Origin: Chryseobacterium rhizoplanae
GTDB lineage: Bacteria; Bacteroidota; Bacteroidia; Flavobacteriales; Weeksellaceae
Length of the DNA stretch: 64,000 nt
Direction: 5' to 3'
Assembly (NCBI RefSeq): GCF_900182655.1
Contig: NZ_FXTC01000004.1
Location: 62,001 to 126,000, forward strand
The notes under the pieces are model-generated. The model was not told where the DNA came from. It saw nothing but the letters and a program-made list of their open reading frames with translations, and ran no database searches. How positions within the stretch are numbered: position 1 is the stretch's first letter; each line of letters starts with the position of its first letter. A program made the position numbers and the translations under genes. This document shows, in pieces, positions 30,956-38,321 of the stretch.

Positions 30956-32839
30956 TTACATGTCCTGGAAATCGACATCTTCATTGTTTATTCTTACCAC
31001 ATATTCAATCCCATCAATAGCTTTGGCAATGATCTGATTTCTGATAATATTAGCCATGTTTTCCCAATAAGCTCTTCCATAGAAAGAATAGTTCTGCGGA
31101 ATAATTTCTACCTCAACGGTTCTTACAAAACCTTCTTTAGGTTTGTTGCTGATCATGGTTCCCCTTCTTACCCTCACTTCTCTTACCTCATCTTTCAGAA
31201 TCATACGGCAAAAGTTTTTAACATCTTCTAAAGAAATGATCTTATCTCTTGTCGTAAGTGCATATTTATAAGCCTGAATACTGTCTGTTCCTTTCTGCTC
31301 TTCAGCACCACCCAATGTTTCGGTAAGCAATACAACTGTCTGCGACTTCAACTGATTGGATAGTTCAGTTCCCGGACGCATATGATTGGCCAAAGTACAA
31401 TGGGTAACCCAGAAAGAAGCGTAGGTATGATCGGTTTTTTCTACAGGTTCCATGATGACATAATTCAGTTCCTGTCTGATATTCCTTTTGGCATTGTTTA
31501 CTTTCTGCACCATGGTTTTCATCTTATCGGACATTTCGCTGAGAACTCCTTTTACGTTATCTCTGTTCAAAAGGGAAAATGCTGCAATTTCGTCTCTTGT
31601 CAATTCAAGAACATTGGCAATCATGTCAACGGCATTTCTGCTTGTGAAACGCTCCATTCCTCCTTTTCTTACAGTATATAAGCCTTTCTTAAGATCATCG
31701 GCTGGTGTGAAAGGGATTTCGGTATACTTTCTCCCGTCACCGTCCTGTACCTCATCTACATACAGGAAATGTTCTCCTTCATCTGTTACCAAAGGAATAT
31801 TATTTCCCATGATATCAAGGCTGTATTCTGTTTTTTTCCAGCCTCTGTTGTAGATTGGGAATGCATTTAATACAAACGAGAAGTTATCAAGGATTTCCGC
31901 TGAAAACTGTGGTGGGAATTCAAAAGTAAGCCATAAGAAAGTTTTATTATCCAGGAACTTTGTAATTTCTTCTTTTCCTGCCAGGAAATCAAGATTCTGA
32001 GGAAGCTGTCCGGGTTCTGAAAACAGGCTTTGAGAAATTCCAGTTACTTCAATAAATTTATGGCGGTAAATGCTTTTAATATCATTAATCACCTTATTTC
32101 TGATGGACTGCTCTTTGAACATCTGTTCGTAACCGTCCGTATGACTTTCTGTAAGATAGCTTAATCCTTCTCTTACAAATAAAGGATTTCCATTGCTGGA
32201 CACCGAAATGTACGGCAATAGTTTATAAACGAAATCAAGGTGTTCAAAAGCCGGATTGGAGCAGAATATGCTCAGGTATTTAGGAAAGTTTTCACTTATA
32301 TATTTGCTTACATCTACTCCTATTGTAATTTTTCTGTAATCTTCAGGTCTTCCCTGAAATCTTGCAATAGGAATTTTATTAAACCGGTCATCTATGCTGT
32401 AGCAGGTATTTCCTACAAACATAACGGAGGTATGAACTTTATTGATTCTTACATTTCCTACCGGTGTAAAAGGAATATTCAGCTGCTTATCGGATTCTGA
32501 CTTTACTGTGGAAGTCATCTGTTTACGGAAGAAAAACTCTGTGTGTTCCAATAAAACCTCTGAAGAATCATAAGGCTGTGTAAAAGCCACGGAATGTGCG
32601 GGAATAGGATGTGTGTAAATGGATGGTGTAAGAAGTTTTGCCAGTTTCTCTAATATACGGGCATTTACCGTCTGTATTTCATTATTCGCTTTAAAAACTT
32701 CTGTACTGAACGCATCTATCAACAGTTTTACAAAAGGATCTAAAGACTGTGGACTTCTGAGTCCCCATACTTTAGTTGCATTTTGAAGCATCCTTGCTTT
32801 TACAGATTCTTTGGAATAAATATTCTGATCTAAATTCAT
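30956..32839 (-). CDS. tssF: Type VI secretion system baseplate subunit TssF
   Basis: 627-aa TssF/VasA-family baseplate protein of the Bacteroidetes-type T6SS (subtype iii). The N-terminus has SKESVKARMLQNATKVWGLR and FVKLLIDAFSTEVFKANNEI, then ARILEKLAKLLTPSIYTHPI, which matches the start of TssF with its LAxLLTPxxxxPxPAHS segment. FEFPPQFSAEILDNFSFVLN and FPIYNRGWKKTEYSLD follow the family's central region. TssF pairs with TssG and TssK to form the baseplate wedge. Here it stands directly after tssE with no other tss gene in the 64 kb. Confidence 0.88.
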   Translation of the reverse strand: MNLDQNIYSKESVKARMLQNATKVWGLRSPQSLDPFVKLLIDAFSTEVFKANNEIQTVNARILEKLAKLLTPSIYTHPIPAHSVAFTQPYDSSEVLLEHTEFFFRKQMTSTVKSESDKQLNIPFTPVGNVRINKVHTSVMFVGNTCYSIDDRFNKIPIARFQGRPEDYRKITIGVDVSKYISENFPKYLSIFCSNPAFEHLDFVYKLLPYISVSSNGNPLFVREGLSYLTESHTDGYEQMFKEQSIRNKVINDIKSIYRHKFIEVTGISQSLFSEPGQLPQNLDFLAGKEEITKFLDNKTFLWLTFEFPPQFSAEILDNFSFVLNAFPIYNRGWKKTEYSLDIMGNNIPLVTDEGEHFLYVDEVQDGDGRKYTEIPFTPADDLKKGLYTVRKGGMERFTSRNAVDMIANVLELTRDEIAAFSLLNRDNVKGVLSEMSDKMKTMVQKVNNAKRNIRQELNYVIMEPVEKTDHTYASFWVTHCTLANHMRPGTELSNQLKSQTVVLLTETLGGAEEQKGTDSIQAYKYALTTRDKIISLEDVKNFCRMILKDEVREVRVRRGTMISNKPKEGFVRTVEVEIIPQNYSFYGRAYWENMANIIRNQIIAKAIDGIEYVVRINNEDVDFQDM

Positions 32840-32863
32840 AATTTTCTTTCGCTGTTAAAAATA

Positions 32864-33304
32864 TTAATCAATAGACATCGGGCTTAGAAACAATTCTGTT
32901 GAAAAACTGAAACGTTCTCCTGTTTCTTCCATTTTTGCATTGATGGCAATTCTTACTTTCTTTTTAATTTCGGTGTGTTCTTTAGTATCGTAGCTGTGCT
33001 CTACAAATTGTATATGGGCATCGATCTGCGGGCTTACAATTCTTGGCTCATATTCCTGGATTTGTCTTCTCAGGCTTTTAACAAAAACGTTTTCCCAGAT
33101 GGCACTTGTTACTCCATTATCGAATTCAAGGTTCCAAACATCGTTTCCATAGTTTTCATCATATCTGTTCTCCCCTTTTTTGGTGGTGATCAGCAGCATA
33201 ATATTGTGAGCAATACTTTCCCCCATATCGCAGGTATCGATACTTCCGCCTTCGGTCATTAAAGTAGACGGTACAAAAGGCATTCTGTAATTTGGTGTAT
33301 CCAT
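32864..33304 (-). CDS. tssE: Type VI secretion system baseplate subunit TssE (gp25-like)
   Basis: 146-aa GPW/gp25-family protein. MGESIAHNIMLLITTKKGEN followed by RYDENYGNDVWNLEFDNGVT is the gp25 lysozyme-like core, including the conserved E/R-rich region (SLRRQIQEYEPRIVSPQIDA) that nucleates sheath assembly. TssE links the baseplate to the contractile sheath. tssF begins 24 bp downstream, and the two form one operon ending in a good terminator. Sequence style fits Bacteroidetes T6SSiii, not phage tails, because TssF is beside it. Confidence 0.88.
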   Translation of the reverse strand: MDTPNYRMPFVPSTLMTEGGSIDTCDMGESIAHNIMLLITTKKGENRYDENYGNDVWNLEFDNGVTSAIWENVFVKSLRRQIQEYEPRIVSPQIDAHIQFVEHSYDTKEHTEIKKKVRIAINAKMEETGERFSFSTELFLSPMSID

Positions 33305-35704: not shown

Positions 35705-36814
35705 TTAATCTTCAATTTTAAAATCCACTACAGAATCCAGTTTCGGATATTTAGTAGCAGAAATAAATTTCTTTCCGGTACAGTCTATTTCCAGCCAGCC
35801 TTTTCTCTTCTTCACGTCCCCGGCCTCCATTACAAAAGGAATAAAAGAGATTTCATCTTTCCCTTCTTCTTTGATCTCTCTGTACTGAACTGCTATATCC
35901 AAAATACATTCATGGTCTGTATTCAGTCTTACATTTCTGTAAACGATATCATAATGCGTTTCTTGATTTTCAGGGATATCAAGGTAAGTTTCCCAGCCTG
36001 TAATATCAGAGTTCAGTTCACTGATAGCCTTCAGCGCATAATAAAGAGCGATGGTATAATATTTTCTAGTCCCTTTTCTGGTATAATCATCCACAAAGTG
36101 TCCGCCTTCAAATAAGATCGTAGGCATTCCGGCTTTGATGAAATTATCTCCTGTGGAAGTAGGATAAAATTCGTCAGAATATCTTCCGATCTGGTTCGGG
36201 ATCATTTCCTTCAAGTGGTTATACACACTTGCAATCACTGCCATGCATTTTCTCCTGTTTTCAGTAACAGTACGTTCTATATTTTCGGAAGGTGCCAGGA
36301 AGGAAAGCGTAGCGGGATGAATACCGTCGGTGGTAAAAATAGTTCTCTGCTCATGAAGGTTTAATGCATAATCATACTTTTTTGAAGCGGCAGCATGTTT
36401 TAGAAACTTAATCTCTTTACTGGCCTCGTTATGAAAATCTCTGTTTAGATCAATATCGGCTGCATTCAGTCTCGTCCATCTCTCAGATCCATCCGGATTC
36501 AGCATGAATATAAAATCAAGCTGTATTTTACTGAACAACTCCTCTTTCATTTCAGGTGCTTTATCAAGGCTCACTAAAAGGTCCAGCATCGCATGGGTAG
36601 CGTTGGATTCATTTCCGTGCATTTGTGACCAGGCTAGTACCTGAATCTTTCCGGTCCCTATAGTTAACCGATAAATAGGCTTATCCAAATACGATGTTCC
36701 GATCTCCTGAATATAATCGCTGAGATTCGCCTGTAGGTAAGAAAATAATTTTTCAGGGGAAATATAGCGATTTGAGAAATCGGGTGTCTGAGAATAGATC
36801 TGTTCAAAATTCAT
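35705..36814 (-). CDS. M14 family zinc carboxypeptidase
   Basis: 369 aa from MNFEQIYSQTPDF; the 12 extra in-frame residues upstream look unrelated. Zinc ligands appear in SQMHGNESNATHAML (H-x-x-E near residue 73-76) and in YDALNL-type segment YALNLHEQRT (third His). NPDGSERWTRLNAADIDLNR holds the substrate Arg and Asn-Arg pair. No signal peptide is visible, so the enzyme is probably cytoplasmic. Substrate could be peptides or murein peptides. It is divergent from the XRE regulator across a 970-bp region filled with palindromic sites, one of them 57 bp before its start. Confidence 0.88.
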   Translation of the reverse strand: MNFEQIYSQTPDFSNRYISPEKLFSYLQANLSDYIQEIGTSYLDKPIYRLTIGTGKIQVLAWSQMHGNESNATHAMLDLLVSLDKAPEMKEELFSKIQLDFIFMLNPDGSERWTRLNAADIDLNRDFHNEASKEIKFLKHAAASKKYDYALNLHEQRTIFTTDGIHPATLSFLAPSENIERTVTENRRKCMAVIASVYNHLKEMIPNQIGRYSDEFYPTSTGDNFIKAGMPTILFEGGHFVDDYTRKGTRKYYTIALYYALKAISELNSDITGWETYLDIPENQETHYDIVYRNVRLNTDHECILDIAVQYREIKEEGKDEISFIPFVMEAGDVKKRKGWLEIDCTGKKFISATKYPKLDSVVDFKIED

Positions 36815-37784
36815 CTTGAGAAATAATTTACAAGAATCAAATTTAGCCATTTTTAGGTAAAAACTTTAATTAACATTTGTAAAAATAGTGAAAATACAGG
36901 AATTTACATTTGACATGTGTTTTTGGAATAATTTACAAGTATTAAATATCGTTGTTTTTATCTGATAGAACACAGTTAACATCTGTAATATTGCTAAACA
37001 GCCTGTAGTGACATATTGTCTGTTGATAAAATTGTGGATTGCGAATAATTTAATTCGTATAATTTAATTAACATTAAATCAATAAGTTATAAAGTTTATC
37101 TAAATTACATTTAGAATATTACTTGAAGTATAAAAAGGGCTGTTTTAGCTGCTTTGAGGGTTATTTTATCAAACATAACAATTGTGGAAAACTTTGTTAT
37201 TGACCTTATTATACAAATGTAAACGAGCTGAAAAATAGAAATCTTGTCTGGAATTCTACCAAATTTATATTTCTGGAGATCAATTTAGCAAACAATAAAA
37301 ATAGTTGTTTAGCATAAGCTCAATCTTTCTTTAATAAGGAGCTATATCGATTAAAATGAAGGCATTTACATTAGTAATTTACTGCTGTAACACCTGTAAT
37401 ATAGTCATTATATCGCTTAAAATGGACATTTATCAGTATCTTAACTCCCGAAGAAGTAATTCGGTTGATTAGTTATGTAAACAGTAAAAAGACCTATTTT
37501 AAGAGACTAAATTCGCTTTGGAGACATCATAATTTACATTTATAAACATGTATAAGAGGTAAATATTGGAATAATATTGCCTCTTCATACTAGCATAAGA
37601 TTTACTCCAAGAGGTTAATATTATTATTAAATACAATTGTAATCTATCTATAATTAATTGATTTAAAATGCCTTATTAATAAGTTACAAATGTATATAGA
37701 TAATTATTCCAATTATTTACATTTGTATTTTGCATTTGTAAATTATATGAGTTACATTTGTAAAATAATTAAAGGCTTATTTTT
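36815..37784. promoter_or_regulatory. Operator-rich intergenic region between M14 peptidase and XRE regulator
   Basis: 970 bp, very AT-rich, with no coding frame. It carries at least nine 12-mers that match the palindrome TTACAWWTGTAA with zero or one mismatch, starting at 36871, 37211, 37366, 37534, 37631, 37684, 37717, 37730 and 37752 (the last perfect), plus weaker ones at 36904, 36977 and 37105. Four crowd the last 100 bp before the regulator. An imperfect direct repeat TATATCGNTTAAAATG occurs at 37344 and 37409. Confidence 0.75.
37729..37760 (+). promoter_or_regulatory. Promoter of the XRE gene overlapping operators
   Basis: TTTG at 37729-37732 and TACATTTG at 37753-37760, 20 bp apart, form a Bacteroidetes-type promoter. 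The -7 box lies within the perfect palindrome TTACATTTGTAA (37752-37763), so binding there would block transcription. Confidence 0.55.
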
Positions 37785-38321
37785 ATGAGTTTAAATGAAA
37801 GAATTTCCAAAATTATAGAGTATTCTAATCTTACTCCTTCTGAGTTTGCTGATGAGATTGATGTGCAGCGTTCTTCCATTTCCCATATTACGTCGGGAAG
37901 AAACAAACCGTCTCTTGAATTTATCATAAAAATAAAATCCCGTTTCCCGGAACTTCTGTGGGATTGGCTGGTTACGGGTGAAGGTGAGATGCTGAAATCC
38001 CAGCTACCCGAATCTGAAATTACCGAAGAACATACCGAAGAGGAGAAAATAAAAACGACTCCACTACCCGATCTTTTTACGATGATGAATGACGATGATG
38101 AATTCGGAAGTGATGAAACAGAGATGGAAGTTCCAAAATCAAGTGCTGGAGAATCGTTTATACAAGCCCAGGATAAAGCTCAGGAAAAAATATCCGATTC
38201 TCAGCGATTAGAAAATTCCGGTGATCAAATATTAGGGCAAATACTTGGTAATCAAACTAATAAGATAAAACGTATTGTTTTGTTCTATGAAAATGGAAAA
38301 TTTGAAAGTTTTGAGCCTTAA
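37785..38321 (+). CDS. XRE-family helix-turn-helix transcriptional regulator
   Basis: 178 aa. Residues 1-65 form a Cro/CI-type HTH: SLNERISKIIEYSNLTPSEF, then ADEIDVQRSSISHITSGRNK as recognition helix region, and PSLEFIIKIKSRFPELLWDW with LVTGEGEML, the usual tail of single-domain Bacteroidetes XRE proteins. The remaining 110 residues are acidic and low in complexity (EEHTEEEKIKTT, MNDDDEFGSDETEMEVP), probably disordered, ending in a short conserved-looking KIKRIVLFYENGKFESFEP. Its promoter overlaps a palindromic site, so autoregulation is likely. There are no phage genes around it, so it looks like a chromosomal regulator. Confidence 0.88.
   Translation: MSLNERISKIIEYSNLTPSEFADEIDVQRSSISHITSGRNKPSLEFIIKIKSRFPELLWDWLVTGEGEMLKSQLPESEITEEHTEEEKIKTTPLPDLFTMMNDDDEFGSDETEMEVPKSSAGESFIQAQDKAQEKISDSQRLENSGDQILGQILGNQTNKIKRIVLFYENGKFESFEP

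Follow-up and report, generated by a model that had tools for sequence, protein, structure and literature searches.

A predicted operator array of an XRE regulator between divergent M14 and XRE genes in Chryseobacterium and other Flavobacteriales

Introduction

The repressors of phages 434 and P22 are associated with a common layout, in which short palindromic operators stand in a row over the repressor's own promoter, beside a divergent gene. The operators of 434 carry ACA...TGT half-sites, which are read by a glutamine that opens the recognition helix. Controller (C) proteins and regulators of the HigA and RstR types, which are likewise XRE proteins of small size, bind operators in the promoters of their own genes. 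Proteins with DNA sites near the replication terminus offer a second kind of comparison: MatP has 23 matS sites over 800 kb in E. coli (PMC3330122), and for ZapT of Caulobacter 10 ChIP positions are reported, mostly inside genes and with no consensus (PMC7188993).

Here we describe an array of palindromes in the window, that is, the whole stretch of 64 kb of a Chryseobacterium genome (5.18 Mb, 24 contigs) that was analysed. The array fills the spacer between an XRE regulator gene and a divergent gene for an M14 zinc carboxypeptidase-like protein; among the papers listed by our literature search, judged by title and abstract opening, there was none on this regulator or its motif. Judging from sequence comparison, it is very probable that an autoregulated Cro/C1-type XRE repressor uses the palindromes as operators to which it binds cooperatively, that they also act on the divergent M14 gene, that the regulon is about this locus, and that the spacer owes its length to the loss of a terC gene. 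The predicted pair of regulator and operator, with a binding site kept across several families of one order, makes a compact target for tests.

Results

The M14–XRE spacer (36815–37784, unstranded) consists of 970 bp of noncoding DNA with a GC content of 25–27%. The M14 gene lies to its left on the minus strand (35705–36814; PF00246, 38.4 bits against a cut-off of 21.6), and the XRE gene to its right on the plus strand (37785–38321), encoding 178 residues with a Cro/C1-type HTH at about residues 1–70 and a conserved C-terminal tail, KIKRIVLFYENGKFESFE. The initial annotation had counted one perfect and eight single-mismatch copies of TTACAWWTGTAA in the spacer, and our search returned the same nine at the same positions; its estimate of about 0.1 chance matches was equally sound, as 1000 dinucleotide shuffles of the 970 bp gave a mean of 0.12 and a maximum of 2 against the 9 observed. 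The window as a whole holds 13 matches with at most one mismatch, where 1.98 are expected (sd 1.41, maximum 5 in 100 shuffles), and nine of the 13 fall within 36871–37763. Among the 1024 palindromes of the form NNNNNWWNNNNN, TTACAWWTGTAA (TTACAW) ranks first both in the window, with 9 copies, and in the 80 loci of the genus set, with 497; the runner-up, ATACAW (183 copies), is an overlapping variant.

Four sites on the plus strand crowd into the final 101 bp upstream of the ATG at 37785, as had been annotated: the predicted operators TTACAAATGTAT (37684–37695), TTACATTTGTAT (37717–37728) and TTGCATTTGTAA (37730–37741), and the perfect operator TTACATTTGTAA (37752–37763), which overlaps the −7 box of XRE and all 12 columns of which are at least 98% conserved in an 81-row alignment. 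Upstream of these, ATACAATTGTAA (37631–37642, plus strand) is moderately conserved, TTACATTTATAA (37534–37545) and TTACATTAGTAA (37366–37377), also on the plus strand, lie in the poorly conserved middle of the spacer, and the well-conserved ATACAAATGTAA (37211–37222, minus strand) forms the right border of a conserved block on the M14 side. The left border of this block is a plus-strand site with two mismatches, TAACATCTGTAA (36977–36988; genus consensus AACATTTGTAA), and the spacer holds four such two-mismatch sites besides the nine (36904, 36977, 37105 and 37469). The ninth match, TAACATTTGTAA (36871–36882, plus strand), belongs to a lineage-specific extra segment. It lies 57 bp before M14, as had been stated, if M14 starts at 36814; we prefer this start to that of a longer ORF at 36850 because strong conservation among the 81 sequences stops at about 36814. 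Beside M14 there is a partial tandem duplication (36822–36960, plus strand) with copies at 36822–36855 and 36927–36960 that are 79% alike; in the window's lineage this duplication of about 105 bp adds one further site. Counted from the longer M14 start, the spacers of L001–L031 measure 901–945 bp and those of the remaining loci mostly 737–828 bp.

The genus set comprised 79 Chryseobacterium genomes and one Weeksellaceae MAG (loci up to 10.5 kb); as the best 80 of 145 confirmed relatives were taken, the set is biased to near kin, and the locus counts given throughout share ancestry and are not independent events. All 80 loci keep the order of an upstream and divergent M14, the spacer and XRE, and each of their spacers (737–945 bp from the longer, 36850-type M14 start) holds at least one perfect site. 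The alignment of 81 sequences resolves two conserved blocks separated by a diverged middle: one beside M14 (about 36930–37225), the other in the 110 bp next to XRE. The palindrome is clearly rarer in other AT-rich intergenic DNA of the same loci: 497 sites in 68.4 kb of spacer (7.27 per kb) compare with 4 in 80.2 kb of other noncoding DNA (0.05 per kb), a 146-fold difference. Chance in AT-rich DNA, the explanation that the low GC content of the spacer would favour, is of negligible probability against 0.12 matches expected and 9 found, and against a perfect site in every one of the 80 loci.

In the whole target genome, TTACAWWTGTAA with at most one mismatch occurs at 175 places, six of them perfect, and the reversed control pattern at 174. 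The motif is thus not generally enriched but concentrated at the XRE locus, where nine copies sit in less than 1 kb. A wider regulon was rejected on the same counts; additional targets may exist elsewhere among the 175 matches. On a rough estimate, six perfect sites are about the number predicted from the one-mismatch count. The five perfect sites outside the spacer were viewed in the 4 kb around each: one lies inside an ORF of at least 80 aa and four lie outside such ORFs; for one of the five (L083) the nearest further copy, with one mismatch, is about 1.1 kb off, and the others have no companion in their 4 kb. Among the matches listed (50 of 175; those of contigs C1–C2 plus the perfect ones), the closest pair is 632 bp apart.

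The XRE protein matches PF01381 (HTH_3) with 29.8 bits (cut-off 23) and no other Pfam domain above cut-off. An AlphaFold model built from an alignment of 15 sequences shows a five-helix N-terminal domain with a pLDDT of 87–91 in residues 1–70 and low values beyond. A Foldseek search with the HTH model placed 434 Cro, the 434 repressor and P22 c2 among the best matches (target TM about 0.8, every E above 0.001). No curated NCBIfam model reaches its cut-off for this protein, the weak matches being RstR (30.4 bits, cut-off 80) and HigA (17.8 bits, cut-off 47.7). We take the segment VQRSSIS to stand at the start of the recognition helix.

The initial annotation had called the regulator solitary, which does not quite hold: XRE is accompanied by a divergent M14 gene in all 80 genus loci and in 16 of 20 loci sampled across the order. 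With this constant partner, which speaks against recent mobility, and with no phage structural gene among the nine window proteins searched in Pfam, the tail-like baseplate genes of a T6SS excepted, we rejected a phage immunity repressor. The T6SS genes (TssF, gp25-like) occupy 30956–33304 on the minus strand, a few kb to the left of the array.

XRE homologues are present in 187 of 197 family genomes and in 186 of 296 order genomes (E up to 0.001, at which remote HTH matches may be counted). From these we drew a family set of 40 loci, 37 from other genera and three (L146–L148) from the own genus, with two of the loci from one genome, G006; and an order set of 20 loci, 18 from outside the family, representing seven further families, and two (L246, L247) from inside it. 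Across eight families, 138 of the 140 loci (80/80 in the genus set, 40/40 in the family set and 18/20 in the order set) have a site with at most one mismatch no farther than 150 bp from the start of XRE. The two order-set loci with no site within that distance are L239, which has two-mismatch copies only, and L247, whose nearest site is more than 200 bp off. M14 is divergent in 16 of the 20 order-set loci, at 226–364 bp in 12 of them, and was not detected in the sequenced stretch around XRE in L233, L239, L243 and L244. The sites stay with XRE in L119, L233, L243 and L244, where the neighbouring DNA shows no M14. In all 12 genomes examined (of 14) of g21, a genus without a clear XRE orthologue, M14 has no site with at most one mismatch in the 600 bp upstream; eight of these genomes have no XRE match and four have weak ones (E 6.5e-9 to 1.9e-4), and their M14 homologues, at 40–42% identity, may not be strict orthologues. 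One g21 locus (L253) has a single site farther upstream, at −1118; G100, also of g21, has no M14 match; and L248, from a genome (G008) that is 79% complete and with 96 bp of upstream sequence, has one site. The counts of 138 of 140 XRE genes and 0 of 12 g21 M14 upstream regions support the view that the sites track the XRE gene and not M14, and the predicted XRE–operator module is, on this comparison, old, real and specific.

The genome G006 has three XRE matches, and each of the two examined (L118 and L119) has a perfect site. The XRE copy of L119 adjoins a gene that we take to resemble RNase H.

As the binding of XRE is itself predicted, the palindromes might belong to another factor, a second HTH or nucleoid protein, for which XRE would be just one target. 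We regard this as highly improbable: the sites remain with XRE copies that lack a nearby M14, and a general factor would have no visible regulon, because the motif shows no genome-wide enrichment.

The −7 consensus of F. psychrophilum sigma-A is TAnnTTTG (PMC9723704). The −7 box that had been claimed for XRE, TACATTTG (37753–37760), matches it and has TTTTG (37728–37732) 20 nt upstream, the two together forming a candidate XRE promoter on the plus strand (37728–37760). In 131 of 138 loci (80/80 genus, 38/40 family, 13/18 order), TAnnTTTG is found in the site nearest the ATG and in the direction of XRE, so the −7 box and the palindrome coincide. Since TTACATTTGTAA contains TACATTTG and the proximal site points to XRE in these loci, the repeats could be read as −7 boxes of several sigma-A promoters with no regulator bound, a build-up that the initial annotation had allowed as a partial alternative. 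The coincidence of box and motif stands, and taken alone the build-up is very unlikely, because the mirror half beyond the −7 box (the outer T and GTAA), for which such a box has no need, is conserved too at the last site in the 81-row alignment, and because the sites are helically phased. A further comparison agrees on the conservation of the mirror half, at a site picked by best match and hence with a bias. Moreover, many sites are reversed or lack TAnnTTTG, the 68 non-proximal sites of 40 loci dividing into 38 forward, 11 reverse and 19 neither; and other noncoding DNA, where promoters are expected too, contains only 0.05 sites per kb.

In a count without shuffle control, 99 of 109 pair spacings in the 40 loci fall at 12–13, 20–23, 32–35, 45–47, 55–57 or 65–68 bp, in steps of about one helical turn (about 11 bp); the spacings recur in different genera, and shared ancestry contributes to this recurrence. 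Such phasing favours operators, because cooperative binding on one face of the DNA needs it and unrelated promoters do not. The autoregulated XRE repressor with several operators that had been proposed from the window is thus supported by comparison, because the sites follow XRE across families, cover the −7 box, are phased and are missing before M14 in g21; its binding is a prediction.

In L229, L230, L234 and L236 (inferred starts), a near-operator, TTTACAATGGTAAAC, apparently straddles the XRE start codon. In L133, L124, L142, L150 and others, 1–2 bp separate the ATG from the end of the operator with the −7 box, and a leaderless XRE mRNA is therefore possible in these loci.

The initial annotation had also described a long multi-operator region; the several operators are supported, and the length is better explained by a lost gene. 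In 9 of the 11 family loci viewed for this, M14 and XRE are separated by an ORF of 347–375 aa, and PF03741 (TerC) matches at that position in G104, G029 and G051; in the target genome (G000), both TerC matches lie elsewhere, on contigs C12 and C13. A tblastn search with the L133 protein found terC in 32 of 56 loci; L136 (g31), where a plus-strand ORF precedes XRE, was scored as lacking terC on tblastn. An M14 tree was built for 50 of the 56 rows, the other 6 having an incomplete M14 or none. On this tree, 29 of 34 family rows outside Chryseobacterium, 0 of 8 rows on the Chryseobacterium side and 0 of 8 rows from other families have terC, a pattern that takes five changes to explain. By parsimony, this distribution fits one gain between M14 and XRE at the base of the Weeksellaceae, with losses in Chryseobacterium, g30/g31, g32 and part of g9. 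On this history of early gain in the family and loss in Chryseobacterium, the most likely origin of the long spacer is a scar that terC left when it was lost and the operators of both ends were retained, a case in which gene loss with retention of operators would account for the length of a spacer.

The conserved block on the M14 side (36977–37225; TTAAACA, then TGNCANNNTGTCTGTTGATAAAATTGTGGATTG) occurs in 33 of 40 family loci and in all 21 genus sequences compared (the window and 20 of the 80). It is single-copy in 8 of 12 genomes searched and was not found in the other 4; its core, a conserved single-copy DNA element, is TGACATATTGTCTGTTGATAAAATTGTGGATTGC (37009–37042, unstranded). Neither strand of the block shows consensus pairs in 54 sequences, and an Rfam search over five loci gave two matches only, both far under their gathering scores. 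A structured RNA leader, riboswitch or sRNA was rejected, with no fold on either strand and no Rfam family in the five loci.

Repeats resembling DnaA boxes (TTWTCCACA and variants) lie at differing places in the spacer across Weeksellaceae genera: in the window at 37009–37042 and, as TTTTCCACA on the minus strand, at 37183–37191, and further in L135, L141, L149, L153 and L154. TTWTCCACA has 107 copies in 68.3 kb of spacer against 18 in 751 kb of remaining locus DNA, many copies being shared by descent; the looser TTWTNCACA has 117 and 115. TTATCCACA alone occurs 64 times in the spacer against at most 4 for 200 letter permutations, again with common descent behind many of the copies. In the 40 family loci, the XRE side has 7 in 12.5 kb (permutations: mean 0.13, maximum 2), and in 7.0 kb of the order set there are none. 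A DnaA link may exist, though only within Weeksellaceae. An oriC at the locus, considered on account of these repeats, was rejected: the skew is negative on both sides, and rRNA orientation and GC skew place the origin elsewhere. Clustered perfect DnaA-box pairs occur in the own genome at C13:48494–48663 and C6:83525–83555, with look-alikes in G162, G160 and G063 and none for the reversed control; they are candidate origin or DnaA-binding loci.

We take TATAATTTATATTATGTTAA to be dif from its likeness to Xer sites. Each of 12 Weeksellaceae genomes has a single copy of it, alongside further matches to a looser pattern, and in the own genome it lies outside the window, on contig C4:15120–15139; a dif inside the spacer was rejected, this dif-like site being 84.7 kb away. 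The GC skew flips sign across TATAATTTATATTATGTTAA in G162, G160 and G029; the samples of G011 and G035 are unclear. A dif has been predicted in 19 of 19 Bacteroidetes (PMC3025954); the main text of that paper contains neither "flavobacteri" nor TTATGTTAA. The distance from XRE to the dif-like site in Weeksellaceae is 2.5 kb in G011, 78 in G178, 83 in G182, 84 in G094, 84.7 in G000, 85 in G162, 87 in G063, 96 in G166, 105 in G029, 134 in G046, 177 in G035 and 241 in G160. For the order genomes, with the best dif match of each, it is 4 kb in G302, 7 in G227, 36 in G202, 50 in G309, 54 in G328, 55 in G379, 76 in G320, 93 in G271, 97 in G340, 100 in G435, 114 in G285 and 207 in G297. XRE orthology in G271, G297, G328, G379 and G435 was assigned by best match alone, and the distance in G285 counts little because three dif candidates tie there at three mismatches (we chose the best Xer-like end, nearest but one; another tie is 239 kb off and the third far). 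With G252 and G293 left out, all 24 genomes that could be evaluated thus have XRE at 2.5–241 kb from a dif-like site, a distance below 5.5% of genome length in each and below 3% in 19.

Of 100 ORFs of at least 120 aa on 121 kb of the own contig, M14 is the only one found near XRE in all eight other genomes compared. Each genome shares 1–10 ORFs near XRE, in stretches of 20–80 kb that do not all reach dif; XRE itself passed an E of 1e-15 in 4 of the 8. How far a gene lies from the terminus tends to be conserved, and symmetric inversions preserve this distance. The closeness of XRE to dif despite largely shuffled surroundings, with distances taken for XRE alone, is suggestive only.

These observations bear on a further reading, in which XRE, bound to its array close to dif, would serve chromosome architecture or segregation, in a role like that of MatP/matS or ZapT, and autoregulation would be a by-product. 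It can draw on the proximity to dif in 24 of 24 genomes amid surroundings largely shuffled in the eight genomes compared, on the conserved, single-copy and unstructured block and the DnaA-box-like repeats in the Weeksellaceae spacer, and on the lack of motif enrichment elsewhere in the genome. We nevertheless consider it unlikely: MatP sites are dispersed over the terminus, whereas the XRE sites cluster at one place; symmetric inversions would keep the terminus distance of any gene; the block and the DnaA-like boxes were not found in the 20 order-set loci; and a gene-regulatory layout accounts for the sites unaided. A more specific form, to which we likewise give a low probability, would have XRE and its phased array mark the terminus in Flavobacteriales: the nucleoprotein complex, compact, autoregulated and close to dif, would couple replication or segregation of the terminus to cell-wall division via the M14 partner. 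No terminus-binding system of Flavobacteria appeared among the papers listed by our literature search, and the closeness to dif raises the testable question of what holds or organises the terminus in Bacteroidota.

Discussion

In the operator model that we prefer, a dimer of the Cro/C1-type HTH of XRE would bind TTACAWWTGTAA; over the XRE promoter, dimers would assemble cooperatively on sites whose phasing follows steps of about 11 bp; and the assembled dimers would cover the −7 box TACATTTG, by which XRE would repress its own transcription. The sites at the far end of the spacer would probably make the divergent M14 subject to this regulation as well; where relatives have terC between M14 and XRE, terC too is preceded by a site. 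The predicted regulon probably comprises little more than the M14–XRE locus. In Chryseobacterium, terC would have been lost while the operators of both ends stayed, leaving the long spacer. The regulator, which may answer to a signal, may activate rather than repress.

The array resembles MatP/matS of enterics and ZapT of Caulobacter in position only, as terminus-proximal DNA sites with a DNA-binding protein: a dif-like site is close by in all 24 genomes, yet the XRE sites cluster at one place. Like the C proteins and the HigA and RstR autoregulators, XRE is a small protein with predicted operators at its own promoter, and it has weak matches, below cut-off, to the HigA and RstR models; unlike them, XRE has an M14 carboxypeptidase-like gene as its conserved partner. 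With the lambdoid 434 repressor and Cro and P22 c2, XRE appears to share the Cro/C1-type HTH fold, on Foldseek matches of low significance, and with the phage layout it shares short palindromes in a row over its own promoter beside a divergent gene, here M14: four of them crowd the final 101 bp, and one of these four covers the −7 box. In contrast to the lambdoid switches, the protein has no further Pfam domain beyond the HTH, its remainder being modelled with low confidence; its locus is chromosomal, has a non-phage partner and is kept through much of an order; and its array in the window extends to 9–13 sites over 900 bp.
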